Assembly (NCBI GenBank): GCA_944322255.1
Contig: CALUOK010000019.1
Span: 1-37,371 of the forward strand
Source of the DNA: Candidatus Methanomethylophilaceae archaeon
GTDB taxonomy: Archaea > Thermoplasmatota > Thermoplasmata > Methanomassiliicoccales > Methanomethylophilaceae
Direction: 5' to 3'
Length of the DNA: 37,371 nt
Both the position numbers and the translations under genes were made by a program. Every line of letters begins with the position of its first letter. Position 1 is the stretch's first letter. The notes beneath the pieces are model-generated. The model worked only from the letters and a program-made list of their open reading frames with translations, had not been told where the DNA came from and made no database searches. This document shows, piece by piece, positions 14,406 through 33,879 of this stretch.

Positions 14406-15713
14406 TCATCTGGCTCTCCTGGATATTATGACCCTGCGCTCGACCGGGTCGGACCCGGGAGGGGGCGAGACGGCATCCCCCGTGGGACGGCGCATCCCGT
14501 CGAGGACCATGCACGTCAGCCACACGGCCAGGACGTTCCTGGCGAGGATGACCATCATCCCCAGGTCGTTGATGTTCTCCCCGCCACCCAGGTAGCCGGC
14601 GTTGTAGGCAAAGTTCGCCTGGGTGAGCACCAGCACCAGCACGGACAGCCAGAGGAGGCGCCTCTCGAACCCGGTGTCGCGGGAGGCGACTACGAACGCG
14701 ATCGGTGCGATGGCCCATATCAGGTACTGGGACGAGAACACCTTGTTGGCCACCATGAACAGCATGAGCACGGCCACCGCCGCCAGGCCGATGATCCTCA
14801 GGTCGTCGTCGCGGACGCCCCTGTGCCTCAGCACAGCGTAGTAGGCATACACGGCCAGGATCAGGACCACCATCAACGGCATCATCACCGATGCCACCGC
14901 GTCGGGCAGGGGCCCCATCAGGTTGTCCGAGCCGAAGCTGTCCGGATCGGCGAACGGCTGGATCCACACTTCGGTCAGGCCGAACATGGACAGCAGGTAG
15001 ACGACGGACGCGGGGACGGACTCGATCTGCAGGGGACGGTCGGTGTGGTACGACAGGAAGTTGGTGATCAGCTCCGGATTGATGAGCCAGGCGACGCCGA
15101 CGATCAGGACGCAGGTCCCGAGGAAGGCGGCGCAGGACACGGCGGCATCCCTCCATTGGCGGCCGTACGCAAGATAGAGAAAATACAGCGGGAACAGCAC
15201 CGCGGGGTAGAGCTTGGTCATGGCCCCGACCGCCAGCAGGAGGCACGCCCACCCGTGGCGCTTCGAGGCGAACATGTAGAATGATGCAAGCGTCAGGATC
15301 GCCGGGAAGATGTCGTAGCGGTCCACGACGAACTCCAGCATCAGCAGCATCAGGACGGCGTAGACCAGCATCGCCCTCTTCTGGTCGTGGCCCATGCGCT
15401 CGGCGAGCTTCGACACCAGCAGCAGGCCGATGACCATGAAGACCAGGACCTCGGCCACGTACGCGACGTTGTATCCCCATGGGGTGTCGGCGAACAGCCT
15501 GGGGATGGCGAAGAACACCAGCGCGAACGGGGGGTACTCCATCACCGGGACCTCGCCGTTGAACAGGGGCTCGGCGTTCTTCCAGAAGCGGTCCCTCATG
15601 ACCTCGGTCTCGATGTCCAGGAAGTGGACGGCGACCAGGTACCCTATGCAGGCGACCAGGAAGAGCGCCGCGATGATGATCTGGTACTTGCGTACGCCGT
15701 CGACCGCCTTCAT
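14406..15713 (-). CDS. GT87/DUF2029-type polyprenyl-phosphate-dependent glycosyltransferase
   Basis: A 435-residue multi-spanning protein with about ten to twelve hydrophobic segments. The N-terminal membrane helix (about 11-30) is followed by an extracytoplasmic loop with VPVMEYPPFALVFF, typical of DUF2029 (GT87) enzymes. These transfer mannose or a similar sugar from a polyprenyl phosphate outside the membrane. FVVDRYDIFPAIL and TKLYPAVLFPLYF are further family-like stretches. The ATG at 15713 starts the hydrophobic N-terminus; the frame extends upstream, but only as shadow sequence. It is the downstream neighbour of the two small membrane genes at 15740-17007, all in one direction with a 26-nt gap, so it may be their third operon member. 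Confidence 0.72.
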   Translation of the reverse strand: MKAVDGVRKYQIIIAALFLVACIGYLVAVHFLDIETEVMRDRFWKNAEPLFNGEVPVMEYPPFALVFFAIPRLFADTPWGYNVAYVAEVLVFMVIGLLLVSKLAERMGHDQKRAMLVYAVLMLLMLEFVVDRYDIFPAILTLASFYMFASKRHGWACLLLAVGAMTKLYPAVLFPLYFLYLAYGRQWRDAAVSCAAFLGTCVLIVGVAWLINPELITNFLSYHTDRPLQIESVPASVVYLLSMFGLTEVWIQPFADPDSFGSDNLMGPLPDAVASVMMPLMVVLILAVYAYYAVLRHRGVRDDDLRIIGLAAVAVLMLFMVANKVFSSQYLIWAIAPIAFVVASRDTGFERRLLWLSVLVLVLTQANFAYNAGYLGGGENINDLGMMVILARNVLAVWLTCMVLDGMRRPTGDAVSPPPGSDPVERRVIISRRAR

Positions 15714-15739: not shown

Positions 15740-16426
15740 TTAATCGCTTTCGCCGTCGATCTCGAACGCCCTGCGACCGAACCGTACCTTGGAGGAGATG
15801 TCCGACGGCGAATGGTCGCCGAGATACCAGTAGACGCAGATGGTGATCACGATGGCTCCGATCAGGTCCGCGGAGAGGTCCCCCATGGTGTCGGCGGCGC
15901 CGTAAACCATGTACGCGTTGCCCGTGACCCCGTCCGTGAAGCCCTCGATCATCTCCCAGATGCCGCCGAAGCTCAGCGCCACCAGGAGCAGCATGATGCA
16001 CATCCCGACACGGTTCCCGAACGTCACGTGCGCGGGGGAATGGGCCTCGATCAGGCACAGCCCCACGAACACGATGCACGTCACGATGGCCGAGGACACC
16101 ACGTGCCCGAAGTCACCGAACCAGCTCACGTTGAGGTAGAGACCTCCGCAGAGGCTCAGGACGTAGAAGAATATGTTGACGTAGATCGCCGCGATGAGCA
16201 TTGGCGGCAGCGACACGAGGTTGAGGAGCCTCAGGATCGGCACGACGAGCGAGATCACGGCCCAGGCGAAGCATGTGGCCACCAGGTACTCCTCGGGATG
16301 GCCCGCATCCAGACCGGGGGCGATCCCCGCGACGACGAATGAGCACACGACCGCGAGCAGGGCGGGGGCTGCGAAAAGCAGGATCCACGCCACGCGGCGC
16401 TCCTTGGAATCCTCGTAGGCGTTCAT
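15740..16426 (-). CDS. DUF2238-like membrane protein, cassette copy 1
   Basis: A 228-residue protein with about six membrane helices. Two motifs recall the DUF2238/YjdF group: WFGDFGHVVSSAIVT (a loop with D and H) and GIWEMIEGFTDGVTG followed by YGAADTMGDLSADLIGA. It aligns by eye over these regions with the protein at 21377-22018: SYDTITHTLSSMTVS, VYWEVIEYSSDVLTG and YDTLTDLVCDFTG. The conserved acidic and histidine residues at membrane borders suggest a catalytic or lipid-handling role, but none is established. Its ATG overlaps the upstream gene's stop by four bases (ATGA), so the two are co-translated. The family match is moderate. Confidence 0.65.
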   Translation of the reverse strand: MNAYEDSKERRVAWILLFAAPALLAVVCSFVVAGIAPGLDAGHPEEYLVATCFAWAVISLVVPILRLLNLVSLPPMLIAAIYVNIFFYVLSLCGGLYLNVSWFGDFGHVVSSAIVTCIVFVGLCLIEAHSPAHVTFGNRVGMCIMLLLVALSFGGIWEMIEGFTDGVTGNAYMVYGAADTMGDLSADLIGAIVITICVYWYLGDHSPSDISSKVRFGRRAFEIDGESD

Positions 16427-17007
16427 CCCATCACCACCATCCCGTTCTCGTTGATGATGAGCCTGTTCTTCCTCATGTAGTGGGACAGGATGACCCCGAA
16501 CACCGCCATTATGATGAGCATCGTCAGGAGGCCGTACAGGATGTACCCGTTGTCCACTATGTCGGAGTCGAGGTACTCCACCACGTATCCGGGCACCTGC
16601 ATCCCCATCGCTATGAACGGGCTGAGTCCGCGGACCACGGCCCAGTTGTAGGACGCCTCCGACACGGATGCGGTTATCACGAACGTCGAGAAGGTCAGGG
16701 GCACCAGGGGGACCGCGTGGACGACCGCCGTCAGGTAGAACCAGAGGAACTCGAACTCGGAATCCTTCTCCACGGAGCTCTGGGCGAGAACCGTCGTGGT
16801 AAGAACCGTGCAGACCAGTGTGACGAATGACGCGATGAGGATCAGACGGTTCATCTTCAGGGAGCAGCGCTTGGAGGCGATGGCGCCGAACACCAGCACG
16901 AAGAAGGATGTGACTACCATGCTGCCCTCCCTCCCGTCTACAGCCAGAATCAGCGACACCAGTGCCACTGCGGCACTGAGTATTGCACCTGCACGCCCCG
17001 AGTCCAT
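16423..17007 (-). CDS. Small polytopic membrane protein, partner of DUF2238-like gene, copy 1
   Basis: A 194-residue protein with five or six hydrophobic segments. I do not recognise a named family. It is a paralogue-like counterpart of the 211-residue protein at 22015-22650. Both carry an acidic stretch before an LTA-containing helix (EFEFLWFYLTAV versus MFLEVDIFTVLTAA) and a loop with D, Y and NG before the last helix (YLDSDIVDNGYILYG versus FYDTERYTNGILM). Both overlap the following DUF2238-like gene by four bases. The ATG at 17007 is chosen because upstream codons in this frame run into the divergent promoter region. A subunit pair with the DUF2238-like protein is likely; the function is unknown. 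Confidence 0.65.
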   Translation of the reverse strand: MDSGRAGAILSAAVALVSLILAVDGREGSMVVTSFFVLVFGAIASKRCSLKMNRLILIASFVTLVCTVLTTTVLAQSSVEKDSEFEFLWFYLTAVVHAVPLVPLTFSTFVITASVSEASYNWAVVRGLSPFIAMGMQVPGYVVEYLDSDIVDNGYILYGLLTMLIIMAVFGVILSHYMRKNRLIINENGMVVMG

Positions 17008-17119
17008 GGTAGCCCCAACAGCATGCCATATTAATCTATTATGAGCAGAAGCAACGGATTGTCCGGGACCTGACGCATCCCGAAATACCGATTTATAGAG
17101 ATAGTCGCTACCCCGGGGC
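17008..17119. promoter_or_regulatory. Divergent promoter region
   Basis: A 112-bp space between divergent membrane genes. On the plus strand TTTATAGA (17092-17099) is about 21-28 bp before the ATG at 17120, a distance expected for a leaderless transcript. On the minus strand an ATTAATA-like box near 17029-17036 sits at a similar distance from the ATG at 17007. Confidence 0.55.
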
Positions 17120-18499
17120 ATGGAGTCGTGCGGGCACATCGCCGGCCGTCTGACCGATACATGCCTCAGGCACCCGATCGCAACCGTTGTCGTGGTGGCG
17201 CTAGTCGTACGCATCGTGCTGATGCCGTTGCTCACCTATGACTACGACATCTACCACTGGGGAGTCATCATACAGAACCTCCAGAGCGGCAACGGCCTGT
17301 ACGATGTCTCCGGATACTACTACACGCCGACCTGGGGATACATACTGGGGTTCATCTCGGCGGCAATCGATGCCATAGGAGCCGTGGATGTGTTCGGCAT
17401 AAGGTTCACGGACCTGTTCCCGATAGAGGGGCTGGACTTCGACTTCCACACGGCCACCACGACCACGGTCGCGTTCAACGTCGCCATGAAGGTCCCGCTG
17501 GTCATCGTAGACATAATTGTGGCGCTCCTCCTGCGCTGGCTCATCATCGACGTCACCGGCAGCGAGAGGAAGGGGCTGGCGGGGATGGTGCTCTGGCTGT
17601 TCTGCCCGACAGTCATCTACATGTCCGGCATACAGGCCCAGTTCGACTCGATATCCGCCCTCATGATGCTCCTGACCGTAATCCTCGTGTACCGCGACCG
17701 CTGCTTCCTCGGTGGCATGATGTTCGGGGCGGCGGTGCTCCTGAAGTTCTTCCCGGGGTTCGCCATACTGGTCATGGTGGCGTACATAGTCGTGAGGCAC
17801 AGAGATGACGGCACGGCCGTCAGGCGGGTGCTGGAGGCGGCCGTCGGTGCGGCGCTGATGTGCGCGGTGCTGTTCCTGCCGCAGATCCTCGACGGGACCT
17901 TCGAGTACACGCTCGGCTTCATATTCGGCCGCATGGACATGCAGAGCGACAACGGCTGGTACGTCGTGGTCGCCCAGTACGCGCTGATAGCGATCGGCCT
18001 CCTGGGAATGGTGTTCGCCGGGATCAGGATGTACAGATCCGATGCGGCGGACGCCGACCGGAACTACTTCACCAACCTGCTGTTGGCCATGGGCTGCGCC
18101 ATGTTCATATCGGCGACCCCCCAGTACATGATGGTCATGCTCCCGCTGCTGATCCTGGTAATGATGTCCTCCGAGGGACGCCTGAGGATCTGCTGGATAC
18201 TGATAACGTTCGGGAGCTTCATCGGTGCCTTCGCCAACAACAACATCATGCTGCTGGACTCCGCATCGGAGTTCCTGGGGCTGGTCACCCCGGAGTGGAT
18301 CGTGTCCGTGGCGGAGGGCATCGAATCCCACACCCTGTTCGGGATCACCCCTGTGCTGCTGGTCAACAGCCTCGGGAGCATCATTGAGTACGTGGGATTC
18401 GTCATACTGGTGCTCCTGTGCTTCGACGAGGCGCTGCGTGCAAAACTACCAAGAATATCCGAGGCCCTTAGCAAGATAAAGAGGTGGGACGTTGACTGA
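17120..18499 (+). CDS. GT-C-type membrane glycosyltransferase, paralogue 1
   Basis: A 459-residue polytopic protein with about ten to twelve membrane helices. The first extracytoplasmic loop starts right after helix 1 and carries YDYDIYHW (40-47), then SGNGLYDV and YTPTWGY. This arrangement resembles GT-C enzymes, where an acidic residue in loop 1 is catalytic and the donor is a polyprenyl-phosphate sugar. FDSISALMMLLTVILVYRD and LLKFFPGF are further family-like features. Its nearest relative in the window is the protein at 19543-20889, which keeps the same loop (YTYDVHSW, SGNGLYDV, YTPTWGY) at identical residue numbers. It overlaps the next gene by eight bases. The GT-C class is inferred from topology and motifs; the substrate is unknown. 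Confidence 0.72.
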   Translation: MESCGHIAGRLTDTCLRHPIATVVVVALVVRIVLMPLLTYDYDIYHWGVIIQNLQSGNGLYDVSGYYYTPTWGYILGFISAAIDAIGAVDVFGIRFTDLFPIEGLDFDFHTATTTTVAFNVAMKVPLVIVDIIVALLLRWLIIDVTGSERKGLAGMVLWLFCPTVIYMSGIQAQFDSISALMMLLTVILVYRDRCFLGGMMFGAAVLLKFFPGFAILVMVAYIVVRHRDDGTAVRRVLEAAVGAALMCAVLFLPQILDGTFEYTLGFIFGRMDMQSDNGWYVVVAQYALIAIGLLGMVFAGIRMYRSDAADADRNYFTNLLLAMGCAMFISATPQYMMVMLPLLILVMMSSEGRLRICWILITFGSFIGAFANNNIMLLDSASEFLGLVTPEWIVSVAEGIESHTLFGITPVLLVNSLGSIIEYVGFVILVLLCFDEALRAKLPRISEALSKIKRWDVD

Positions 18500-19538
18500 A
18501 AGGAAATCCGACAAACCCGCGGTGATCATCGCGGTGGCCCTTCTGGCGATCATCCTGATCGGCGAGGTCATCGTGTACACCTCAGACTACACGGACTACT
18601 CCGCCGAGGCGGGACTGGAAGGGGACTCACTGGGATACCAGGTGTCCGCGGACGGCTCCAAGACGTACTCGGTCGTGGTGAACGACAACGGGACCTACGA
18701 CGGCATGGACCGCCTGTACATCTACTTCGACGAGTCGTACCCCGCCAACTACGAGGACGTGGACGTCTCCATCGGAGCGCAGGCCCTCGATCAGAGGTAC
18801 TACCTGGAACAAGTGGTCAATCTGCTGAAACCTCGCAACTTCCACGACATCACCTATGTCGACGCGGAGCAGCTGGCGGATGCGCTGGCCGGGGACCTCG
18901 CTTCGGACGGATGCGGGACCGCTGGACTGCTCGTCATCTCCGGAGTCCTCCCCGACACCGTGTACACGGGGAACGCCGACGACACCATATTCCAATGGCT
19001 GTCCGGTGGCGGCAGCCTCTACTGGCTCGGGAACCTCATCGGAGAATGCTACGCCACGACGGACGGGCTCCAGCACGTCGATGGCTACCAGGAGCTGTTC
19101 TTCGGAGCGGAGTGCCTGAACACCGAAGGCGTCGACACGGCGTACAGCGAGGTGGACGGCAACGACTACACCCATGCTCTGGCCCTCCAGAGCAACAGCG
19201 TCAAGTACGCCGTGGACGGGGACAGGGTCCCGGACGACCGGGCCCACCTGAGCATCGGGTTCACGGAGGGCGGATACTCCAGCATAACCCTCGTCCAGTA
19301 CGGTTCCGGGATGGTCTGCGTCCTGGGAGGAGACTACTCGAACTATCAGCGCAACGACCTGGTCCAGATCATATCGTCCGGCCTCGGGCCCCAGTCCTCC
19401 ATCGTCTCCGTGGAGACGGGGACGGTCACCAACGGCACCGTGTCGGGGAGGATCGAGGGTGTGACCGGCAGCAGCCTGTCGGCGTTCATCTACCTCGGCG
19501 GATACTATCCGGTGTACAACAAACTGTTCTGGCTGTGA
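18492..19538 (+). CDS. Membrane-anchored extracytoplasmic protein, possible GATase1/ThuA-like fold
   Basis: A 348-residue protein with one N-terminal membrane helix (about 10-29) and a large, acidic, tyrosine-rich external part. It starts at TTG 18492, backed by GAGGTG five bases upstream, and overlaps the preceding GT-C gene by eight bases. Within the ectodomain, LLVISG (146-151), WLSGGGSLYWLG (169-180) and YGSGMVCVLGG (270-280) resemble the strand-loop pattern of class I glutamine-amidotransferase-like folds such as ThuA or DUF4350. I see no convincing catalytic Cys-His pair, so it may be binding rather than enzymatic. It sits between two paralogous GT-C genes and probably works with them outside the membrane. 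No function is assigned. Confidence 0.65.
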   Translation: MTERKSDKPAVIIAVALLAIILIGEVIVYTSDYTDYSAEAGLEGDSLGYQVSADGSKTYSVVVNDNGTYDGMDRLYIYFDESYPANYEDVDVSIGAQALDQRYYLEQVVNLLKPRNFHDITYVDAEQLADALAGDLASDGCGTAGLLVISGVLPDTVYTGNADDTIFQWLSGGGSLYWLGNLIGECYATTDGLQHVDGYQELFFGAECLNTEGVDTAYSEVDGNDYTHALALQSNSVKYAVDGDRVPDDRAHLSIGFTEGGYSSITLVQYGSGMVCVLGGDYSNYQRNDLVQIISSGLGPQSSIVSVETGTVTNGTVSGRIEGVTGSSLSAFIYLGGYYPVYNKLFWL

Positions 19539-19542
19539 TACG

Positions 19543-20889
19543 ATGCTCGCCGACGTGCCCCTGAGGTTCCGGATCGGAAGCGGGTTCCTCCGCAAGGACG
19601 TCCTGATCGTCCTGGCACTGGGACTCGTTATCAGGTACGTCGTAGGGTTCTTCCTCACCTACACCTACGACGTCCACAGCTGGGCGCTCATAATATCCAA
19701 CTTCGAGAGCGGCAACGGCCTGTACGATGTGGCGGGACACAACTACACCCCGACCTGGGGGTACGTGTTGGGGACGTTCTCGGCGATCGCCGAGGCTCTG
19801 GGCCTCGACGTGTTCGGCGAGAGGCTCACCGACGCCCTGCCAGTGGAGGGATACGACGGATGGTTCTACTCCGCCAGCGTGCCCACGGTCGCCTTCGCCC
19901 TGGCTGTGAAGACGATGTTCTACATAGTGGACGTCGCCGTCGGCTACGCCATATTCTGGATCATAAGGGAGCGCACGTCCGACGAGAGGAATGCCGCCAT
20001 CGGGTTCGCGCTCTGGTTCCTCTGCCCCTTCGTGATCGCCGTCGGAGGGATCGGAGGCATGTTCGACACGTTCACCGTGCTCCTCACCCTGCTCACCGTG
20101 ATCTTCCTGATGAGGGACAGGTACCTCCTGGCGGGGATGTCCCTGGGAACCGCCGCGCTCATGAAGATCTTCCCCGGGGTGCTGGTCTTCGTGATGATCG
20201 CCTATGTGCTGCTGAAGCACAGGGACGACGGGAAGGCCTTTCCGGCACTCCTCCAGTCGTTCGTGGGCCTGGTTGCGATGATCGTCGTGATGCTGATCCC
20301 GCAGATCCTCGACGGGACACTGTCGGACTGCTTCGGGTTCCTGTCCTCCAGGGCGGGGGACGGCATGGGGGTCGGCGGGGACATGATCACATATGCGACG
20401 TTCGCGGTCTACGCGGCCATCTTCGCGGTGACCCTGCTCCTCGCCTACAGGATGGCCCGCGGGAAGGGGACAGACCCGGACGGCACGCTCCTGACGATGC
20501 TGATGGTTAACGCCGCGGTGCTCTTCCTGTACCCGTCCACCCCTCAGTACATACTGCTGCTGACGCCGTTCCTGATCATGCAGATCGTCCTGACGGACCG
20601 CAGGTACCGCATCCCGTACATCGTCCTGGCCGTCGGCACCACCATGTTCGCCCTCGGAGGGAACGCCACGTTCCTCCTGTCCGTGGCCGGGTTCACGGAC
20701 CTGGTCTCCATGGACGCCGTCCTGGCGGGGACGGACTGGTTCCTGACACCCGGATGGCTCGGCATCGCCCCCATCAGCGTGATCTACTACGGCGGCGGAG
20801 TGCTGCAGTACATCGGCACCATCCTCGTCCTTGCGGTCTACGCCAAGGTGCGCTCCTGCAGCGGGACATCCGCGGTACCGGCGAGCTGA
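19543..20889 (+). CDS. GT-C-type membrane glycosyltransferase, paralogue 2
   Basis: A 448-residue polytopic protein clearly related to the protein at 17120-18499. Loop 1 keeps D43, W47, SGNGLYDV and YTPTWGY. Later segments also match by eye: ALWFLCPFVIAVGG with LWLFCPTVIYMSG, LMKIFPGVL with LLKFFPGFA, IPQILDGTL with LPQILDGTF, and STPQYILLL with ATPQYMMVM. The first acidic residue of the other copy (D41) is threonine here, which could alter specificity. The ATG at 19543 is 4 nt after the ectodomain gene, so the three form an operon. The two enzymes may add successive residues to one glycan. Confidence 0.72.
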   Translation: MLADVPLRFRIGSGFLRKDVLIVLALGLVIRYVVGFFLTYTYDVHSWALIISNFESGNGLYDVAGHNYTPTWGYVLGTFSAIAEALGLDVFGERLTDALPVEGYDGWFYSASVPTVAFALAVKTMFYIVDVAVGYAIFWIIRERTSDERNAAIGFALWFLCPFVIAVGGIGGMFDTFTVLLTLLTVIFLMRDRYLLAGMSLGTAALMKIFPGVLVFVMIAYVLLKHRDDGKAFPALLQSFVGLVAMIVVMLIPQILDGTLSDCFGFLSSRAGDGMGVGGDMITYATFAVYAAIFAVTLLLAYRMARGKGTDPDGTLLTMLMVNAAVLFLYPSTPQYILLLTPFLIMQIVLTDRRYRIPYIVLAVGTTMFALGGNATFLLSVAGFTDLVSMDAVLAGTDWFLTPGWLGIAPISVIYYGGGVLQYIGTILVLAVYAKVRSCSGTSAVPAS

Positions 20890-20932
20890 CACCCTGTCAC
20901 ATTTATGTACGTGGAACACCTGCGAGCCACCG

Positions 20933-21376
20933 ATGGGCAAGATAAGCTACCTCATGATGGTCCACAGAGAGGCCATCATGTATGTCATAATGGGCGGGTT
21001 CACCACACTCGTCACATGGGCATCCTATGCGGGATTCGTCCACTTCGGCGTGTCCGAAGAGGTGAGCAACGTCCTGTCCTGGGTCTGCGGAGTGGTCTTC
21101 GCGTTCATTGTGAACAAGTGGATCGTCTTCAACAGCAAGACCCTGAAACCGAAGGAAGTGGCGCGTGAAGTCGTGTTCTTCTTCGGATCGAGGATCTTCA
21201 CGCTCGTGGTGGCGGTCATCGCGTTCCCCGTCCTGATCGACATAGGCTTCGACCAGGAGCTTTTCGGAACGCCGGGTATGGTCGCCAAGATCATCACCAG
21301 CGTCATCGAAATCGTCCTGAACTGGGTGCTCAGCAAGTACCTGGTGTTCAGGAGCAAGAAGGCCAGGACCCAGTGA
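20933..21376 (+). CDS. GtrA-family membrane protein
   Basis: A 147-residue protein with four membrane helices in the GtrA pattern: YVIMGGFTTLVTWASYAGF, then LSWVCGVVFAFIVNKWIVF, and the end LNWVLSKYLVFR. GtrA proteins are proposed to flip polyprenyl-phosphate-linked sugars across the membrane. The frame extends upstream to 20831, overlapping the GT-C gene, but the ATG at 20933 starts just before recognisable sequence. The 43-nt gap after the GT-C gene has a weak TTTATGTA box. It fits the neighbouring GT-C enzymes, which need a lipid-linked donor outside. Its stop and that of the convergent gene abut as TGATCA. Confidence 0.88.
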   Translation: MGKISYLMMVHREAIMYVIMGGFTTLVTWASYAGFVHFGVSEEVSNVLSWVCGVVFAFIVNKWIVFNSKTLKPKEVAREVVFFFGSRIFTLVVAVIAFPVLIDIGFDQELFGTPGMVAKIITSVIEIVLNWVLSKYLVFRSKKARTQ

Positions 21377-22018
21377 TCACTCCTTCGAACGGTCGGTGAA
21401 CGCCAGGTCCTTTATCTTCTGGTTCAGCTCGAACGACTCGATCAGGTCCTTGGGGCTGCGGCGGCTCATGTAGAATCCGACGAACACGGATGCCAACAGC
21501 GTCCCAGTGAAGTCGCAGACCAGGTCGGTGAGCGTGTCGTAGGGGCTGTACTGCGTCACCGATCCCGTCAGGACGTCCGACGAGTACTCTATGACTTCCC
21601 AGTACACGCTGAACGTCATCCCCAGGAGCGCGGTGAAGAATGCGAGGGCCCTGCCGGTGAAGTTGACCGCTCCCTTGGCGTAGTACTGGAAGCATGCGAG
21701 CACCAGGAATATGCATATGCTGACGGTCATCGAGGACAGCGTGTGCGTTATGGTGTCATAGGACCCGCCGAGCACGTAGATATTGACCGCCAGTCCGAAA
21801 GCGTGCAGGAACGCGGAGGCGATGATCAGTACGTTGAGGAAGACGGGGATCGTGAACGCCCCGGTCTGCCTGATCACGAACGGTATGAAGCAGATGATCC
21901 CGCAGATGACCGTGACCCTCACGTTGTGATCCAGTATGTCGGGGGAGAAGAAGGCCATGGCTATGATGGCGATTCCCACGACCATCGAGATGACATCGAG
22001 CAGCCTGATGTTCCTCAT
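21377..22018 (-). CDS. DUF2238-like membrane protein, cassette copy 2
   Basis: A 213-residue protein with about six membrane helices. It has the same landmarks as the 15740-16426 protein: YDTITHTLSS, then VYWEVIEYSSDVLTG, then YDTLTDLVCDFTGTLLASVFVGF. The order of D/H loop, W-E-x-I-E and Y-D-T-x-x-D-L-x-x-D recalls DUF2238. The short C-terminal tail is cytoplasmic and charged (ELNQKIKDLAFTDRSKE). The ATG at 22018 overlaps the upstream gene's stop by four bases, exactly as in the first cassette. The pair sits on the other side of the GT-C/GtrA genes. Function is unknown. Confidence 0.65.
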   Translation of the reverse strand: MRNIRLLDVISMVVGIAIIAMAFFSPDILDHNVRVTVICGIICFIPFVIRQTGAFTIPVFLNVLIIASAFLHAFGLAVNIYVLGGSYDTITHTLSSMTVSICIFLVLACFQYYAKGAVNFTGRALAFFTALLGMTFSVYWEVIEYSSDVLTGSVTQYSPYDTLTDLVCDFTGTLLASVFVGFYMSRRSPKDLIESFELNQKIKDLAFTDRSKE

Positions 22019-22650
22019 GTTCCGTCCTCCGTCGTGTCTATGAATATGTCCTTGCTCAGTCCGCGGTACGCCAGGACGGTGTAGACCGCCATCACCGCGG
22101 TGACGATCGTCGACATCACCGGCGTCGTCATCAGGATGCCGTTGGTGTACCTCTCCGTGTCGTAGAAGTCCTCGTTGAACACCGGGTACCCTGCGACGTA
22201 CATGTTGCTGAACACGAAGAACATGTCCAGGGCGGAGAGGGCCATGGCGAAGGCGAGGGCGAATACGATCATCCACATCTTCGTCATCCTCATCCCGAAC
22301 GTGCGGTCCATCAGGACGGCCAGCATGGAACCGATGATGAAGCACTGGTACGACTGGATGGCCGCGGTCAGGACCGTGAATATGTCCACCTCGAGGAACA
22401 TCTCGTCATGGAGGTTCGTCGCGTAGTCCGCCGTGGCGACGACCACCGCGAGCACCGGTGCCACCATGGACATGATGATCATCCCCCTGTTGTAGCGGTA
22501 CCCCAGGTTCATGAAGTACGGGATGGAGAGCATCACGATGCACAGGACGTCTATGATGAGCCACATCCAGTCCCGGGCCAGAAAGGCGATGAATCCCAGG
22601 ACCACCGACAGGGCTACCGACATCGAGACGAGAGTCTTGGTGGAGGTCAC
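22015..22650 (-). CDS. Small polytopic membrane protein, partner of DUF2238-like gene, copy 2
   Basis: A 211-residue protein with about six hydrophobic segments and no recognised family. It is the counterpart of the 194-residue protein at 16423-17007; conservation is weak outside the acidic/LTA helix and the final D-Y-x2-NG loop. The start is GTG at 22650. A TTATAA box at 22673-22678 is centred about 25 bp upstream, so the message is probably leaderless. The same gap holds a palindrome at 22651-22665 that could be an operator. It is translationally coupled to the DUF2238-like gene by a four-base overlap. Confidence 0.65.
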   Translation of the reverse strand: MTSTKTLVSMSVALSVVLGFIAFLARDWMWLIIDVLCIVMLSIPYFMNLGYRYNRGMIIMSMVAPVLAVVVATADYATNLHDEMFLEVDIFTVLTAAIQSYQCFIIGSMLAVLMDRTFGMRMTKMWMIVFALAFAMALSALDMFFVFSNMYVAGYPVFNEDFYDTERYTNGILMTTPVMSTIVTAVMAVYTVLAYRGLSKDIFIDTTEDGT

Positions 22651-23761: not shown

Positions 23762-24802
23762 TCAGTTCCCACGTGTGCGCAGGATCTCGTCGACAGCATC
23801 GGCGAATGTGTACGATTCCGAGACCTGTATGGATCTGCAGCCGAGACGGCGACCGAACTCCATGTCCTTCTCATGGTCGCCGACCATGAACGACCTGGTC
23901 GGATCGATGCCGTGCTTGGCCATCGCGGCGAGGCCCATCCCGATCTCGGGCTTCCTGCAGGAGCAGTGGTCCTCGGGAGTGTGCGGGCAGTAGAAGATGT
24001 CGTCGATGCGTCCGCCGGCCGCCTCCACGGTGCGCACGAGCTTGTCGTGGATGCGTCCCAGAGTCGCCTCGTCGAAGTACCCGCGGCCTATGCCGGACTG
24101 GTTGGTTATCACAATCACTAGGAAACCTGCGTCGTTCAGCTTCCTGACGGCCTCGGGCACGAAGTCGTAGAGTTCGAACTTGTCCGGGTCGTCGCAGTAC
24201 GGGACGTCCTTCGCGATCGTGTCGTCGCGGTCGATGAACACCGCTCGCTGTCCGAACATCTCCCTCTCGACGATGCCGCACATCGTGTGGCATGCGCAGA
24301 GGTACCCCTCCTGGATGCGGGGGGTCTCCTTCGAGGGTATGATGACGGCATGGTCAGCGATCTCCCTCATACGGCCGCCGTCCCCGGTGAATGAGATGGT
24401 GACGGCGCCGCGCTCCTTGGCGGCCTCCATGGCGAGGATGACGTTCTTGGAGTTGCCGGACGTGGACATGCCGATGACCACATCGCCTTTCCTGCAGATC
24501 GCCTCGATCTGCCTCTTGAAGACGAGGTCGTAGCTGTAGTCGTTGCCGATGGCGGTGACCGGAGCGATGTTGGAGAGGCACACGCCGGGAAGCGCGGGGC
24601 GCTCGAGCATGTACCTGCCGGAGAACTCGGCGGCGATGTGCTGGGCGTCCGCGGAGGAACCTCCGTTGCCCATGAAGATGACCTGGCCACCGTTCCTGAA
24701 GGCCTCGATGAGAATGTCTGCGGCCTTCCTGATCTGTGCGGGATCGATCCTGGAGATCGTGTCTGCGCTCCTCTTCAACTCTGCTACGATGGCGTCATTC
24801 AT
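23762..24802 (-). CDS. GmhA-GmhB fusion: sedoheptulose-7-P isomerase plus heptose-bisphosphate phosphatase
   Basis: A 346-residue protein with two enzyme domains. Residues 1-185 are a SIS-fold phosphoheptose isomerase like GmhA, with GNGGSSADAQH (45-55), STSGNS (113-118), E59 in AEFSGRY and H172 in the CACHTMCGIVE helix. Residues 186-346 are a HAD phosphatase like GmhB, with the nucleophile motif DRDDT (D191, D193), ITNQSGIGRG, a zinc loop CPHTPEDHCSCRKP and MVGDHEKDM. Together they would make heptose 7-phosphate from sedoheptulose 7-phosphate and remove the 7-phosphate after kinase action. The ATG is preceded by GGAGG at seven bases and overlaps the HddA stop by eight bases, so the steps between the two domains' reactions are encoded next door. 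These enzymes are usually separate proteins. Confidence 0.88.
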   Translation of the reverse strand: MNDAIVAELKRSADTISRIDPAQIRKAADILIEAFRNGGQVIFMGNGGSSADAQHIAAEFSGRYMLERPALPGVCLSNIAPVTAIGNDYSYDLVFKRQIEAICRKGDVVIGMSTSGNSKNVILAMEAAKERGAVTISFTGDGGRMREIADHAVIIPSKETPRIQEGYLCACHTMCGIVEREMFGQRAVFIDRDDTIAKDVPYCDDPDKFELYDFVPEAVRKLNDAGFLVIVITNQSGIGRGYFDEATLGRIHDKLVRTVEAAGGRIDDIFYCPHTPEDHCSCRKPEIGMGLAAMAKHGIDPTRSFMVGDHEKDMEFGRRLGCRSIQVSESYTFADAVDEILRTRGN

Positions 24803-25811
24803 CTGTATACCTCCAAGAGATCACTCCCTCGGGTTCGAACATGTAGTCCGTGACCTTCGCGCCCATCTTGAGCAGCTCCTTCGCCACGTTGTACTTGCGG
24901 TCGTATTCGCATATGAAGTACATGAAACCTCCACCGCCCGCACCGGAGACCTTTCCGCCGATGGCGCCCTCCCTCATGGCGGCGTCGTAGAGGGCGTCGA
25001 TGTGGGGGTTGGTGATCTTGTTGGAGAACTGCTTCTTGTACATCCATGACTCGTCGAGGAGCTCTCCGGCCTTGTGGATGTCTCCCCTCTCCAGGGCCAC
25101 CGTCAGCGACTTGGCGATCTCCTTTGACCTGTCCAGCGCCTCCTCGTTCTGGCCCTTGTTGAACTTGTCCACCTGGCTCTCGATGATCTTGGCGGACTCG
25201 CGGGGGCTTCCGGTGTAGCAGAGGAGCGAGCAGTACTGGAGCTCGTTCTTCGTGTCATCGGAGATCCTCACGCGGTTGACGTTGACCCCGTGGCTCCCGA
25301 ACTGCATGAAGTTGAACCCGCCGAAGACGGCGGCGTACTGATCCTGCTTCCCGCCCTTGAGGCCGATCTCCTCGCGCTCCAGCTTGTACGCGAGCTGGGC
25401 CATCTCCATGCTCGTGAGCCTGATGTTCTGCCACTCGCACATGGCGGCGATGATGGACACGATGACCGTGGACGATCCGCCGAGACCGGAGCCCGGAGGG
25501 GCCTCCGACTGGAGGAATAGCTTGAAGCCGTCCGTGATCTCGAAATGGTTGGTGACGGCCTTGATGAGGTCCATGTTCCCGTCGAGCGGCAGGGGGCCGC
25601 CGTCGAGAGGGGCCTCGTACTTCCCGTAGTCGGTGGAATGGACGGACATAGAATGGTCGTCGGTGGGCGTGATGGTACAGTATGCGTACCTGTTGATCGT
25701 GGTGTTGAAAACGGCACCGCCCTTCTTCGAGGCGTATGGATCGACATCCGTCCCGCCTCCGGCCAGTCCTATTCTCAGAGGGGCTCTTGCTCTGTAGTGT
25801 ATCCCATCCAT
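24795..25811 (-). CDS. hddA: D-glycero-alpha-D-manno-heptose-7-phosphate kinase (GHMP family)
   Basis: A 338-residue GHMP kinase. It has the N-terminal RARAPLRIGLAGGGTDVDPY typical of HddA, the ATP loop PPGSGLGGSST (about 105-115) and the C-terminal glycine-rich GKVSGAGGGGF. It would phosphorylate heptose 7-phosphate at C1, the step between the two activities of the downstream fusion protein. HddA is the kinase of the GDP-heptose branch, in contrast to HldE of the ADP-heptose branch. The ATG at 25811 has GGTGG four bases before it. A promoter lies at 25885-25897. Related fucose and galactose kinases share the fold, but the pairing with GmhA/GmhB makes the heptose role likely. Confidence 0.87.
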   Translation of the reverse strand: MDGIHYRARAPLRIGLAGGGTDVDPYASKKGGAVFNTTINRYAYCTITPTDDHSMSVHSTDYGKYEAPLDGGPLPLDGNMDLIKAVTNHFEITDGFKLFLQSEAPPGSGLGGSSTVIVSIIAAMCEWQNIRLTSMEMAQLAYKLEREEIGLKGGKQDQYAAVFGGFNFMQFGSHGVNVNRVRISDDTKNELQYCSLLCYTGSPRESAKIIESQVDKFNKGQNEEALDRSKEIAKSLTVALERGDIHKAGELLDESWMYKKQFSNKITNPHIDALYDAAMREGAIGGKVSGAGGGGFMYFICEYDRKYNVAKELLKMGAKVTDYMFEPEGVISWRYTDE

Positions 25812-26446: not shown

Positions 26447-26481
26447 ACGTCCTCGCACATCCGGCACACAGGTGAGGACGT
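26447..26481 (+). promoter_or_regulatory. Inverted repeat covering the start site of the GT4 gene
   Basis: ACGTCCTC (26447-26454) and GAGGACGT (26474-26481) are perfect inverted repeats around 19 nt. The second arm covers sequence just before the GTG start (26480) and its first two bases, next to the GGTG ribosome-binding site (26471-26474). If transcribed, the hairpin could limit translation. Whether the transcript begins upstream of the first arm is not known. Confidence 0.4.
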
Positions 26482-27643
26482 GCGCGTTATCCTTCTGACC
26501 GACAGCTACCACCCCACGGTGGACGGAATGGTCTTCGTGGTCGATTCTGAGAAGAAATGCCTTGAGAGGCTCGGACACGAGGTGTTCATCGTCGCACCCG
26601 ACCCGGGGGAGAAGGACAGGATCGAGGGTGTCTACTACTTCAAATCCAAGTCGTTCTCGTCCTACAAGGGCTACTTCGTTCCGGTGTACCCCTCGCACAC
26701 CAAGAAGGTCTTCGAGGAGATCAGGCCCGACGTGGTCCACTCCCACGGACTGACGCTCATGGCCCTGAAGGGCTTCCTCGCCGCGCACAGGATCAAGGTG
26801 CCCTACGTCGTGACGATGGGTACCATGGTCACGGACGCCATGAAGTACTATCTCCCGATCAAACTCCCCGTCAAGACCATGGAGAAGCTCTCCTGGGTGT
26901 ACCTCAGGCAGCTGCTCAACCGCTCAGACGCCGTGGTCTCGTTCACCACTCCCATCCTGGAGGAGCTCAGCGCGGAGGGCGTGGAGCCCAGGCAGTCCAG
27001 GGTCATAACCGCGGGAGTGGACACCGACATGTTCCACCCGATGGAGGAGCCGGAGGGGCTGAGGGAGTCGATGAACCTCGTCGGCAAGAGGGTCATCATG
27101 TGCGTCGGAAGGCTCTCCTTCGAGAAACATGTGGAGGAGGTCATCCAGTCTCTGAAGTACCTGCCGGACGACATCGACCTGATCATCGACGGGGACGGCC
27201 CCGCCAGCGAGTACATAGCCCAGGTCATCAAGGACGAGCACCAGGAGGACAGGGTGCACCTGATCGGGATGGTGAAGCGCGAGGACTTGCCGAAGTACTA
27301 CACGATGGTGCAGGTCTGCGTGTCCGCATCCAGGTTCGAGACCCAGGGCCTCAGCCTCATGGAGGCCATGGCGTGCAGGGTGCCCATCGTCGTCCCCAAC
27401 GTCAGGGCGTTCAAGGAGATCATCATCGACAACGAGAACGGGTTCCTGTTCGACGGCGGCATCGAGGACATGGCCAAGCGCATAGTCGAGGCGCTGGACG
27501 CCAGCAGGGACGACCGCATCAGGGACGCCGCGATGGAGCGCGCCAAGTCGTACTCCGAGGACAGCAGCGCCAGGAAGCTCGTCGAGCTCTACGAGTCCGT
27601 GATCGAGGCGAAGAAGAAGCGCCTCGCCGAGGGCAAGTCGTGA
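26480..27643 (+). CDS. GT4-family glycosyltransferase (GT-B fold)
   Basis: A 387-residue cytoplasmic glycosyltransferase. It has an N-terminal TDSYHPTVDGM acceptor-domain start, HSHGLTLMA, a linker with ITAGVDTDMFHP, the donor-domain opening VGRLSFEKHVEEVIQS, and the E-x7-E-like nucleotide-binding region SRFETQGLSLMEAMACRVPIVV (read as SRFETQGLSLMEAMAC, with E at both ends). The start is GTG with GGTG five bases upstream. It resembles enzymes that mannosylate or glucosylate lipids, but substrate cannot be read from sequence. It is transcribed alone, converging on the glf gene; the two stop codons abut as TGATCA. Confidence 0.9.
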   Translation: MRVILLTDSYHPTVDGMVFVVDSEKKCLERLGHEVFIVAPDPGEKDRIEGVYYFKSKSFSSYKGYFVPVYPSHTKKVFEEIRPDVVHSHGLTLMALKGFLAAHRIKVPYVVTMGTMVTDAMKYYLPIKLPVKTMEKLSWVYLRQLLNRSDAVVSFTTPILEELSAEGVEPRQSRVITAGVDTDMFHPMEEPEGLRESMNLVGKRVIMCVGRLSFEKHVEEVIQSLKYLPDDIDLIIDGDGPASEYIAQVIKDEHQEDRVHLIGMVKREDLPKYYTMVQVCVSASRFETQGLSLMEAMACRVPIVVPNVRAFKEIIIDNENGFLFDGGIEDMAKRIVEALDASRDDRIRDAAMERAKSYSEDSSARKLVELYESVIEAKKKRLAEGKS

Positions 27644-28777
27644 TCACAGCGTGGCAGCCAGTTCCAGGGCGCGCCTCAGCGCCTGATCCATGTTGTAGTA
27701 CCTGAAGTCGGCGAGCCTCCCGCAGAAGGACAGGTTGTCCACGGACTCCGCCATCGACCTGTATCCCTCATACACGGCCTTGCTCTCCTCGGTCAGGACC
27801 GGATAGTACGGCTCCAGTCCCTTACCGGGCTCGTACTCCAGGGACCTCTCCAGGGCGTACACAGTGCCGTCGCCCTCCTGGACGGGCAGCTTCTTGTACT
27901 CGGTTATGCGGACGACCTCCGGGTCGGATGGGTACGCCACCACCGGCGCGGGCTGGAACGAATCCTGGTCCGAACGGCGGAACTCGAACTCCAGGGAACG
28001 GTACGGCAGCCTTCCGTGAACGAATCCGAACAGCTCGTCCAGTGCACCGGTGTACACCACATGGACGTCGGGCATGCCGTCCACCACGACCCTGCCGTCC
28101 TCGATCCGCAGACGGTCCAGGGCCTCGACCCCCAGCTCCACGGCGATGTTCGGATGGTCGAGGAGGCGGCGGAAGAAGTCGACGAAGGTGGTCCTCGGCA
28201 TGACCTGGTAGGTGTCGTCGAAGTAGCGGTCGCCGTACGACATGCGGAGCGGCACCCTCTTCAGGACGCTCGGGTCGATCTCCGCCGGGGGTATCCCCCA
28301 CTGCTTGGAGGTGTACGGGCGGTAGTCCTTCTCGAACAGGTACTCCGCGTAGCCGCGGATGACATGGTCCTCGGAACCCAGGGCCTCCACGACGGTGACG
28401 GTCTCCCTGCCCGGGTACACCTCGGCCACGCGGGCCTTGATCTCGGCCGCCTCGGCTTCCGGGAAGAACGTGTCGATGGTCGTGAAGTTGAACGGCGTCG
28501 GGGTGTACTCCCCGTCCCAGACCGCCCCGCACCTCAGTATGTACCCGTCCCACTCGGAGAACCTGCACATGTAATCGTACAGTGACTTGTCGGAGGTGTG
28601 GAACGTGTGCGGACCGTACCTCTGCACCAGGTACCCGCTCTCCGGGTCCCGGTAGTCGTACATGTTTCCGCCGATGTGGTCGCGGCGGTCCCATATGGTG
28701 ACTTCCTCCCCTCTCTCAGCCAGCTCGCGGGCGACAACGCCCCCCGACAGACCGCAACCGACTACCAGATAGCGCAT
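27644..28777 (-). CDS. glf: UDP-galactopyranose mutase
   Basis: A 377-residue flavoenzyme converting UDP-galactopyranose to UDP-galactofuranose. It has the FAD-binding N-terminus YLVVGCGLSGGVVARELAE, followed by DHIGGNMYDY and the RYGPHTFHTSD segment with the histidine typical of the family. NFTTIDTFFP, EKDYRPYTSKQWG, the VVYTGALDELFGF segment and the ITEYKKL region are also recognisable. It is the last gene of the five-gene operon, one base after the rmlC-like gene. Its presence implies galactofuranose in the surface glycan of this archaeon. Confidence 0.95.
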   Translation of the reverse strand: MRYLVVGCGLSGGVVARELAERGEEVTIWDRRDHIGGNMYDYRDPESGYLVQRYGPHTFHTSDKSLYDYMCRFSEWDGYILRCGAVWDGEYTPTPFNFTTIDTFFPEAEAAEIKARVAEVYPGRETVTVVEALGSEDHVIRGYAEYLFEKDYRPYTSKQWGIPPAEIDPSVLKRVPLRMSYGDRYFDDTYQVMPRTTFVDFFRRLLDHPNIAVELGVEALDRLRIEDGRVVVDGMPDVHVVYTGALDELFGFVHGRLPYRSLEFEFRRSDQDSFQPAPVVAYPSDPEVVRITEYKKLPVQEGDGTVYALERSLEYEPGKGLEPYYPVLTEESKAVYEGYRSMAESVDNLSFCGRLADFRYYNMDQALRRALELAATL

Positions 28778-28778
28778 G

Positions 28779-29354
28779 TCAGAAACCGCCGTACTTCTCC
28801 ATGAACTGGGAGAACGTCTGAAGGTTCTCGTCCTTCTCGGAGAGGATCACAGCGCCCTCGCCTCCGACCAGCTCCAGCGGCCAGTCCACGGCCAGGTCGG
28901 GGTCGTTCCACACGATCCCGTCGTCGTACTCCCCGTAGAACTTCTCGGCGCATTTGTACGAGACGATGGAGTCCTCGAGGACCAGGTACCCGTGGGCGCA
29001 GCCCGCCGGGACCAGGATCTCGTTGTGCCTCTCCCCCACCAGGTCGAAGGCCAGCCACTTCCTGAACGTGGGGCTGTCCCTGCGGAGGTCCACCGCCACG
29101 TCCCAGACGTGGCCCCAGATGCACCTCACCAGCTTCGGCTGCTGCATCACCCTCTGGAAATGGAGGGCGCGGACGACACCCTTGTGGCTGGTGGTGTAGA
29201 ACACCTCCGCCAGGTCGTGCCTTATCCCGTGCGCCTCGAAGACCTCCTTGGAGTAGTCCTTCGTGAAGCATCCCCTGAGGTCCTCCGCGTTGAACGGGGT
29301 CACCTCGATCAATCCCGGGATCTCAGTCTCCCTGAACTCGAACGGCTGTACCAT
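28779..29354 (-). CDS. rfbC: RmlC-like nucleotide-sugar 3,5-epimerase
   Basis: A 191-residue cupin of the dTDP-4-dehydrorhamnose 3,5-epimerase family. It has GVVRALHFQR with the catalytic histidine, DVAVDLRRDSPTFRKW, VPAGCAHGYLVLEDS and SYKCAEKFYGEYDDG, then WNDPDLAVDWPL. The active-site tyrosine of the family is in the SYKCAEKFY part. The neighbouring genes encode CDP-glucose enzymes and no RmlA, RmlB or RmlD is present. The real substrate is therefore probably CDP-4-keto-6-deoxyglucose rather than the dTDP form. It lies 3 nt after the reductase gene and 1 nt before glf. Confidence 0.85.
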   Translation of the reverse strand: MVQPFEFRETEIPGLIEVTPFNAEDLRGCFTKDYSKEVFEAHGIRHDLAEVFYTTSHKGVVRALHFQRVMQQPKLVRCIWGHVWDVAVDLRRDSPTFRKWLAFDLVGERHNEILVPAGCAHGYLVLEDSIVSYKCAEKFYGEYDDGIVWNDPDLAVDWPLELVGGEGAVILSEKDENLQTFSQFMEKYGGF

Positions 29355-29357
29355 GAT

Positions 29358-30275
29358 TCATCCCTCTGAAACAATCCAATCCCTCGTGCGCCTGCACCCC
29401 TCGGCAAAGGACACCTGCGCCCTGAACCCCGTGTCCCTCTCGGTGCCGGAGCAGTCGAACACCGACAGGGGGAGGTCCACGCCTGTGAACGGCATGTCCC
29501 CGAAGCAGAACTCCAGCCCAGGGGCGATGGCATCGTGCATCTCCATCAGGAACTCCCTCAGCGGCCTCGCCATGGAGCTCCCTATGAGGTACTCGGTGAA
29601 CGGCTGACCCCTCTCGCCTATGAGACGGAACGCGCGTGCCGCGTCGTCGATGTAGACGAAGTCGTAGTTCTGCGTCCCGGATGTGAACTGCGGCGAGACG
29701 CCGTCGATGCACTTGCGGATGGTCGTGTTCACCAGCCTTGGGCTGCGCTCCCCCGGACCGTAGGCGTTCGTGATGGCTGGCCAAACGAGCTCGGTGCCGA
29801 TCTCCGCCGCGACAGACATGCACATGATGTGGGCCGCGACCTTCCCGCACCCGTAGATGTATCCCTGCCCGGGACGGTTGCCGTCCCTGTAACCGGCGGC
29901 CATCGTCTCGTGCTCCATTATCGACCCCGAGTGGAGGAAGCGTCTGCAACCGAGCTCCTTCGAGACCCTCAGCGCGTCGACCGTCCACATAGCGTTGTCC
30001 AGCTGGAGGCGGACGTCCGCCCTCCTCGGTCCGGCCGACCCCTCCCATGCCAGGTCGTAGAACGTGTCGCATGCGCCGGACGGGATCTTGCCGACGAGGC
30101 CGCGAGCATCCCTGACATCGAAGTCGACGATGTGCAGCCCCTTCGCGTCCGGGAGGTTCGACCTGTTCCCCCTGTGGACGGCGGCGTAGACCTCCATCCC
30201 GTTGGAAAGGAGCTCCCCGACCAGGGCGCTCCCCACGAAGCCGTTGGCCCCTGTGACCACCACGGACTCCATCAT
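29358..30275 (-). CDS. SDR-family nucleotide-sugar reductase/epimerase
   Basis: A 305-residue extended short-chain dehydrogenase. It has an NAD(P)-binding GANGFVGSALVGELL at residues 9-23, the core DLAWEGSAG, a SGSIMEHE segment with the active serine and the Y-x3-K pair in YGCGKVAAH. The N-TNAYGPGERSP part is typical of sugar epimerases. In the operon after rfbF and rfbG, it is well placed to reduce a 4-keto intermediate, giving a CDP-6-deoxyhexose, as in abequose- or paratose-type synthases. No 3-deoxygenation gene is seen, so a plain 6-deoxy sugar is expected. Its ATG overlaps the rfbG stop by four bases (ATGA). The product's stereochemistry is unknown. Confidence 0.82.
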   Translation of the reverse strand: MMESVVVTGANGFVGSALVGELLSNGMEVYAAVHRGNRSNLPDAKGLHIVDFDVRDARGLVGKIPSGACDTFYDLAWEGSAGPRRADVRLQLDNAMWTVDALRVSKELGCRRFLHSGSIMEHETMAAGYRDGNRPGQGYIYGCGKVAAHIMCMSVAAEIGTELVWPAITNAYGPGERSPRLVNTTIRKCIDGVSPQFTSGTQNYDFVYIDDAARAFRLIGERGQPFTEYLIGSSMARPLREFLMEMHDAIAPGLEFCFGDMPFTGVDLPLSVFDCSGTERDTGFRAQVSFAEGCRRTRDWIVSEG

Positions 30276-31321: not shown

Positions 31322-31325
31322 GTGC

Positions 31326-32096
31326 TCACCAGAGCTTCCAGGGGGCCTCTCCGGAGTCCCAGAGCCTCTGCAACTTCTCCTTGTCGCGCATGGTGTCCAT
31401 GCACTGCCAGAAGCCGTCGTGCTTGTAGGCGTTCAGCTCGCCGTCGGCTGCCAGTCTCTCCACCGGCTCGCGCTCGAACGTGGTGGAGTCCCCGTCGATG
31501 TAGTCTATCACGGACGGCTCCAGAACCATGAACCCGCCGTTGATCCATCCGACGTCGTCGATGCTCTTCTCCCTGAACGACCTGATGTCGTTGCCGTCCA
31601 TGTCGAGTGTGCCGAAGCGCCCCTCCGGGCGGACGGCGAGGATCGTGGCCTTCTTGCCCTCCCTCCTGTGGAAGTCGACGACCTTGTCGATCGGCGCGTC
31701 GGTGACGCCGTCGCCGTACGTAAGGCAGAACGGCTCGTCCTCGTCCAGGAAGCGCCTTATGCGCTTGACGCGCCCGCCGGTCATGGTGTTCAGACCGGTG
31801 TCGGCGATGGTCACCGTCCACGGCTCGGACTCGTTGTTGTGGACGGTCATGCCGTTGGACCTGAAGTCGAAGGTGACGTCGCTGTTGTACAGCGCGTAGT
31901 TGGAAAACCACTCCTTGATGATGTGCTGCTTGTACCCGGCGCAGACTATGAAGTCGGTGATTCCGTAGGACCCGTAGATCTTCATGATGTGCCAGAGTAT
32001 CGGCTTGTCCCCGATCTCGATCATAGGCTTGGGCTTGAGATGGCTCTCCTCGGAAATCCTGGTTCCGAAGCCGCCGGCAAGGATCACTGCCTTCAT
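31326..32096 (-). CDS. rfbF: Glucose-1-phosphate cytidylyltransferase
   Basis: A 256-residue nucleotidyltransferase making CDP-glucose from CTP and glucose 1-phosphate. The signature GGFGTRISEESHLKPKPM carries the triphosphate-binding loop and the SEESHLKPKPM part distinguishing RfbF from dTTP enzymes. CLTYGDGVTDAPID holds a metal-binding aspartate, and the segment WINGGFMVLEP and the end KHDGFWQCMDTMRDKEKLQ are also typical. The ATG at 32096 heads the five-gene operon rfbF / rfbG / reductase / rmlC-like / glf. A GATATATG box at about 32129-32136 lies 35-40 bp upstream. Confidence 0.96.
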   Translation of the reverse strand: MKAVILAGGFGTRISEESHLKPKPMIEIGDKPILWHIMKIYGSYGITDFIVCAGYKQHIIKEWFSNYALYNSDVTFDFRSNGMTVHNNESEPWTVTIADTGLNTMTGGRVKRIRRFLDEDEPFCLTYGDGVTDAPIDKVVDFHRREGKKATILAVRPEGRFGTLDMDGNDIRSFREKSIDDVGWINGGFMVLEPSVIDYIDGDSTTFEREPVERLAADGELNAYKHDGFWQCMDTMRDKEKLQRLWDSGEAPWKLW

Positions 32097-32128
32097 AGGT
32101 ATCGCATGTGCGAACGCCGACGCCCGTC

Positions 32129-32742: not shown

Positions 32743-32751
32743 CGTCGCACC

Positions 32752-33843: not shown

Positions 33844-33879
33844 CGGTACGCGACCTGAGGTTGCAATTTTGAACCGGAC

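Follow-up and report, generated by a model that had tools for sequence, protein, structure and literature searches.

Two coupled gene pairs beside glycosylation genes of a Methanomethylophilaceae archaeon each encode a probable lipocone enzyme and an inactive paralogous partner

Contig CALUOK010000019.1 of a Candidatus Methanomethylophilaceae archaeon (assembly GCA_944322255.1) raises the question of what two similar pairs of small membrane-protein genes do on the flanks of a block of glycosylation genes. The window analysed here is this whole contig of 37 371 nt, part of a 1.88-Mb genome; the named relatives with these genes are Methanomethylophilaceae and Methanomassiliicoccaceae, methanogens of the order Methanomassiliicoccales. 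A preliminary description, made from the sequence alone, had suggested a two-subunit membrane complex acting on lipid-linked sugars or on the glycan, and had recognized no described relatives. The last point no longer holds, as one protein of each pair (B) belongs with the DUF2238 proteins, or Wok lipocones. Its companion (A) is, as judged from profile alignments, a diverged copy of B from which the predicted active site has gone.

All four genes lie on the minus strand. Pair 1 comprises A1 (16423-17007, 194 aa), the putative inactive lipocone-like partner, and B1 (15740-16426, 228 aa), a probable active lipocone; the corresponding genes of pair 2 are A2 (22015-22650, 211 aa, with a GTG start) and B2 (21377-22018, 213 aa). 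At both junctions, GTGATGGGATGAACGCC and GACGGAACATGAGGAAC, the TGA stop of A and the ATG start of B overlap by 4 nt within ATGA, which bears out the common order, strand and overlap originally described. The further proposal that the pairs are paralogous stood directly for the B proteins, which are homologous by BLASTP (23%, E 6e-15), whereas BLAST found no similarity between A1 and A2; their link is seen solely through the tree and the family profiles, of which the A1-type and A2-type align at 92.6% over 178 columns (hhalign). Likewise, the motifs thought to be shared by the pairs (the D/H loop, WExIE and YDT/ADT..DLxxD) are present in B1 and B2 and missing from A1 and A2. Pfam and NCBIfam scans of single A and B proteins returned sub-threshold matches only.

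The lipocone superfamily is set out in the main text of Burroughs, Nicastro and Aravind (eLife 2025; PMC12419801) as a membrane four-helix cone with a His on helix H2, a Glu on H3, an Asp on H4 and a fourth polar residue. According to that text, the predicted activity of lipocones is the removal or swapping of lipid head groups that are attached through phosphate, PTDSS1/2 and TelC being the characterized examples; substrates are said to include polyprenyl-linked sugars, and the site is expected to be extracytoplasmic. DUF2238 is described there as partly covering the Wok family, which has two extra N-terminal transmembrane (TM) helices and a cytoplasmic tail, and cardiolipin synthase activity is proposed for some Wok proteins.

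The DUF2238 profile PF09997 matched 18 of the 37 B members (best E 1.6e-5). A profile of the B family aligned with a six-member DUF2238 alignment that includes Escherichia coli YjdF at 95.7% (hhalign, E 9e-9), and with YjdF singly at 90.8%; the DxxxH, ExxE, D..D and late Gly columns were in register. By this profile evidence B is a distant homologue of DUF2238 (YjdF) and a lipocone of the Wok family.

The conserved positions are D88, H92, W140-E141, E144, D148, D161, D165, D169 and G172 in B2, and H108, W157-E158, E161, D165, D179, D183 and D187 in B1. Across the order, from which 60 B and 50 A proteins were compared, the B residues (B2 numbering) are close to invariant: W, E141 and E144 occur in all 60 proteins, H and D148 in 59, D165 in 57 and D161 in 56. 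In the AlphaFold2 model of B2 (predicted local distance difference test score, pLDDT, 86), TM helices span residues 6-24, 30-52, 59-77, 86-113, 122-151 and 159-186, and H92, E141/E144/D148 and D161/D165 share one end of TM4, TM5 and TM6. The predicted active-site segment (21500-21760, minus strand) contains DxxxH at the start of TM4, WExxExxxD at the end of TM5 and DTxxDxxxD at the start of TM6. Lysine and arginine together number 0.7 per protein on the face with the active site, against 8.6 on the opposite face; by the positive-inside rule the site is extracytoplasmic, in agreement with the lipocone model. The helix map and charge distribution reproduce the Wok layout of a two-helix N-terminal extension, four-helix core and cytoplasmic C-terminal tail, and the lipocone residue set is represented by H92 (H2), E141 (H3), D161/D165 (H4) and, as the polar residue close to where H3 ends, D148.

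None of the 50 A proteins of the order, and none of 12 from haloarchaea, keeps the His together with the Glu; for the most diverged A proteins the site columns were read from a joint alignment, which makes them less secure than in the 23 found by the B profile. The A and B profiles nevertheless align at 97.8% (hhalign, E 7e-13, 185 columns), A shares the six-TM layout of B, and the two halves of a modelled A-B fusion are alike. Compared directly with DUF2238, the A profile reached just 2%. The homology of B1 and B2, together with the A1-A2 and A-B profile alignments, therefore puts A1, A2, B1 and B2 in one family, and we rejected the idea that A and B are unrelated subunits. By these alignments A is an old diverged copy of B, a paralogue of the pseudoenzyme type. 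As the site is nearly invariant in B and lost in A, each pair appears to consist of one probable enzyme and one inactive partner. A single site built from Asp, His and Glu residues of both subunits, as had been envisaged, is contradicted by the restriction of these residues to B.

The pairing recurs throughout Methanomassiliicoccales and in haloarchaea. Of the 60 B genes of the order, 43 directly follow a profile-confirmed A, with a spacing of exactly -4 nt in 28 cases. A further 7 are fused with A in one open reading frame (ORF), 7 have a small upstream ORF that the profiles did not recognize, and for 3 no upstream partner was called. In the larger tree, A and the inactive copies found at class level separate from all active proteins with support of 100/99; in a second tree that includes haloarchaea, all active proteins again group together (100/99), and the haloarchaeal A proteins, like the haloarchaeal B proteins, attach to one and the same class-level pair. 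For the most part the A subtree mirrors the B subtree: on both sides, pair 1 of the window stands beside loci L031 and L071, and pair 2 beside L031 and L035 (L numbers are our designations). Branches among the A proteins are long, so the trees are to be read with some care; these phylogenies are most simply read as a single ancient duplication, after which the two copies stayed together. The model of a natural A-B fusion (pLDDT 83.9; predicted template modelling score, pTM, 0.83) has two six-TM halves, and its pTM suggests a defined arrangement of A and B. Steady adjacency, translational overlap, recurrent fusion and largely matching trees all argue for the two-subunit membrane unit of the preliminary description.

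The haloarchaeal examples lie on plasmids. The 13 loci opened comprise nine overlapping pairs, three single fusions of 428-439 aa and one lone B; the B site is intact throughout, and all 12 partners lack it. A GT-A glycosyltransferase gene follows one of the fusions. The fused form in Natrialba magadii adjoins a glycosyltransferase gene. Two haloarchaeal pairs adjoin metallophosphoesterase and phospholipase D genes, surroundings akin to the contexts given for Wok in the main text of PMC12419801.

Outside the order, several Thermoplasmatota encode a single active B with no partner. In L137 and L140, from another family of the class, the partner is only partly decayed, and L139 has a fusion with an inactive N-terminal and an active C-terminal half. 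Another Thermoplasmatota lineage holds tandem lipocone genes (L152:7790-9824, minus strand), two intact and a third broken by a stop. Two single ORFs join an active B-like lipocone to a following domain: at L141:7821-8990 (minus strand) the added domain is TYW3, a methyltransferase of tRNA wybutosine synthesis (E 1.1e-46), so that a membrane protein is oddly combined with tRNA modification, and at L150:7639-8829 (minus strand) it is another domain.

The preliminary description left out the gene with the tightest link to pair 1. This gene encodes a GT-C glycosyltransferase of family GT87 (14406-15713, minus strand; PF09594, E 9.7e-18) and starts 26 nt downstream of B1, giving an A1-B1-GT87 unit. 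When GT87 homologues were compared across 100 relatives, the nine most similar (at least 51% identity) each had a type-1 pair as direct neighbour, which the more distant ones did not. This adjacency is kept while gene order varies, with GT87 upstream in L068 and L084 and downstream elsewhere; in L080 a PMT_2 protein takes its place. Chance adjacency of pair 1 and GT87 was dismissed on the strength of the nine closest homologues. Glycan or lipid-phosphate genes, among them nucleotide-sugar, flippase and PAP2 genes, occur within five genes of the pair at 30 of the 40 loci from the window's family; for the order's other five families the figure is 8 of 24. The link to glycan genes is real but lineage-limited. 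Location mostly away from glycosyltransferases, which had been named as an outcome that would speak against the original proposal, was found for most pairs outside the window's family; pair 1 and its relatives do not show it.

The block between the pairs is as first described and runs on the plus strand. It begins with a GT-C glycosyltransferase (17120-18499; weak GT87, PIG-M and ALG6 matches), followed by a membrane-anchored ectodomain protein (18492-19538) that has no Pfam family match, a second GT-C copy (19543-20889; PIG-U, PF06728, E 1.2e-6) that is 39% identical to the first over 433 aa, and a GtrA/DPMS transmembrane protein (20933-21376; PF04138, E 6.2e-19). The ectodomain gene, found among the 100 relatives only in the window's family, is the conserved partner of this GT-C family: the two adjoin co-directionally in all 17 loci that hold one (for example L031, L038, L045, L046 and L048). 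Its tie to the pairs is looser. Among 60 genomes of the family, B and the ectodomain gene occur together in 36, the ectodomain gene alone in 13, B alone in 6 and neither in 5; on these counts we dropped a fixed dependence of the pairs on this cassette. The supposed association with extracytoplasmic glycosylation genes is therefore upheld for pair 1 with GT87 and not as a fixed tie to the GT-C/ectodomain cassette.

Other sugar-related genes lie nearby. A second GT87/GT-C/ectodomain set is present at C26:11784-15431 of the same genome, with no B family hit there. Within the window, on the far side of pair 2 (26480-37191), genes for sugar nucleotides and glycosyl transfer are densely clustered: two GT4 and one GT2 glycosyltransferases, two sugar nucleotidyltransferases, short-chain dehydrogenases/reductases and a Glf-like mutase. 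A GmhA-GmhB-like fusion, an HddA-like kinase and a nucleotidyltransferase beside pair 2 (23762-25811 and 33908-34936) are presumably genes of a heptose-nucleotide pathway.

Set against known systems, B resembles Wok/DUF2238 proteins such as YjdF in the order of DxxxH, ExxE, D..D and Gly, in the two-TM N-terminal extension, four-helix core and C-terminal tail, and in its extracytoplasmic site. It differs in lacking R-N before the D, in scores mostly under the Pfam cut-off and in a shorter H3-H4 linker, of about 8 residues; YjdF has about six more, and the Wok 'handle' at this position is defined as distinct. The DUF2238 proteins compared are single subunits, whereas B is preceded by an inactive paralogue that is coupled or fused to it. 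The cpCone clade (PTDSS1/2) also has a second Glu three residues past the H3 Glu, and also shows duplication with one inactive copy. That copy is the second in cpCones and the first here, where it is usually a separate gene; moreover, B lacks their circular permutation (H1 after H4), and has its Asp at -4 where cpCones have a polar residue, usually Asp, at -6. Membership of B in the cpCones was dropped because a TM helix precedes H2, none follows H4 and the conserved Asp lies at -4. Like the A-B fusions, VanZ-1/VanZ-i proteins unite an active and an inactive lipocone domain, and VanZ is found in exopolysaccharide loci; they are bacterial, however, with the inactive copy C-terminal and different motifs (DxDDxxxN and others), and VanZ membership of B was rejected on motif spacing. 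The GT-C of pair 1, through its match to PF09594, recalls the polyprenyl-phosphate-mannose-dependent GT-C enzymes of the GT87/PimE type, and we take it to belong to the PimE family (GT87). We know of no lipocone partner of PimE.

The main text of PMC12419801 mentions duplication for cpCones and inactive copies for VanZ. We found in it no mention of an active Wok protein coupled to an inactive one, of such pairs in two groups of archaea or of the GT87 unit, and the strings 'Thermoplasmat' and 'heterodimer' are absent from it; the supplements may list archaeal pairs. Judged on that main text, the superfamily is already known and the paired active/inactive Wok arrangement is what is new.

From the computed homology, helix layout, site loss in A, pairing, fusion, topology and GT87 linkage, we infer catalysis, a physical complex, a substrate and a pathway. 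In the model that we consider fairly probable, each pair encodes a heteromeric integral-membrane lipocone enzyme, nearest to Wok/DUF2238, with B active and A a partner without a site, and pair 1 works with GT87 in making an extracellular glycan, either lipid-linked or lipid-anchored. B, with its two N-terminal helices and four-helix core, would be the active subunit, and its His on H2, ExxE and following Asp on H3, and D..D on H4 would meet at the extracytoplasmic face. The target of B there may be a membrane or polyprenyl lipid, whose phosphate-linked head group it would cut off or replace with a different group that carries a hydroxyl. The six-TM A, kept translationally coupled or fused, probably rounds out the complex: it may shape the lipid pocket, serve as a gate or dock a partner. 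Pair 2 would work less tightly with the GT-C/ectodomain/GtrA block. The most likely activity is that B hydrolyses or exchanges an outer-leaflet phosphate-linked lipid head group, with A as a required structural or regulatory partner. Action on lipid-linked sugars or glycan, as first proposed, is compatible with the extracytoplasmic residues and with the lipid head-group chemistry that the main text of PMC12419801 ascribes to the superfamily. A role in glycolipid synthesis is attractive, if unproven, given that PimE mannosylates a phospholipid-based glycolipid (PMC12041525) and that glycosidic head groups prevail among the abundant tetraether lipids of a related methanogen (PMC5628862); the main alternative substrate would be polyprenyl-linked glycans.

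Several observations weigh against this model. B1-type proteins lack the Asp at -4 from the His (B1 has G104), and most B members, including B1 and B2, score below the Pfam gathering cut-off for DUF2238. Foldseek searches with the B and A-B fusion models found no solved structure in the Protein Data Bank, and none of the viral models, at E<=0.001; owing to the former, membership of B in the lipocone fold rests on profiles, motifs and PMC12419801. We found no biochemical evidence for any DUF2238 protein in the literature. Linkage to glycosyltransferases is uneven outside the window's family, and the random control, in which 408 genes from 20 regions included 0 glycan genes, covered four genomes only and used detector seeds partly drawn from the pair neighbourhoods.

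The alternatives differ mainly in the substrate. A PTDSS-like or cardiolipin-synthase-like exchange, remodelling archaeol and caldarchaeol phospholipids so that glycan genes matter only through lipid glycosylation, is a possibility that we take seriously while placing it short of probable. The cardiolipin synthase activity proposed for some Wok proteins (PMC12419801, main text) favours it, as do the phospholipase D and metallophosphoesterase genes beside two haloarchaeal pairs and the one CDP-alcohol phosphatidyltransferase found in this genome. PimE, moreover, adds mannose from a polyprenyl-phosphate donor to a phospholipid-based glycolipid (PMC12041525), and a related methanogen has a membrane rich in tetraether lipids whose head groups are mostly glycosidic (PMC5628862). 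This context is only indirect, and 18 of the 60 family genomes, several nearly complete, lack a B hit, so the pair cannot make an essential core lipid. Direct action of A-B on dolichyl-phosphate- or diphosphate-linked sugars, for example in transfer or release of a GT-C-made glycan as part of a dedicated pathway, seems to us rather unlikely. It would fit the union of type-1 pairs with GT-C enzymes (GT87 in nine genomes, PMT_2 in another), the glycan genes at 30 of 40 family loci, the STT3-type oligosaccharyltransferase encoded in the genome, and, from the main text of PMC12419801, the cleavage of polyprenyl-diphosphate head groups by TelC and the VanZ members in exopolysaccharide loci. Yet 13 of 60 family genomes hold the cassette with no B, 6 have B but no cassette, the C26 set has no B family hit, a PAP2 phosphatase is separately encoded, and the haloarchaeal and most other-family pairs have no glycosyltransferase neighbours. 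The boldest form of the lipid head-group model, an ancient heterodimeric lipocone of Thermoplasmatota and Halobacteria that swaps or removes ether-lipid head groups on the outer face so that GT87 can build glycosylated tetraethers, must be called speculative and unlikely.

Synteny might also bring the pairs and the glycan genes together with no functional link, since many family pairs occupy a chromosomal site near the L7Ae-S28e-L24e-NDK operon and homologues of pair 2 in two genomes (L034 and L035) adjoin unrelated genes. We regard this as doubtful in view of the persistence of A1-B1-GT87 adjacency despite varied gene order, and of the contrast between the nine closest GT87 homologues, all pair-linked, and the distant ones. 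Least probable of all is a non-enzymatic role, in which B would be a sensor, a channel or an assembly factor that has retained a site for a ligand or metal, with A as a structural partner. Such a role would suit a DUF2238 family with no known activity, and the universal stress proteins and transporters that recur as neighbours; it sits poorly with the near-invariance of the H/E/E/D/D/D cluster in B and its loss in A, and with the main text of PMC12419801, where the characterized active lipocones are enzymes.

Overall, our analysis predicts that the A-B pairing is an old archaeal enzyme partnership. Lipocones are a newly defined superfamily for which archaeal biochemistry is almost nil, and an active and an inactive protein that are kept together, repeatedly fused and located beside lipid and glycan genes represent a defined two-protein target. 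This target could show what Wok/DUF2238 enzymes do and why a pseudoenzyme is needed, including in culturable haloarchaea. If pair 1 acts with GT87, it would also offer an entry into how these methanogens decorate the outer face of their membrane.

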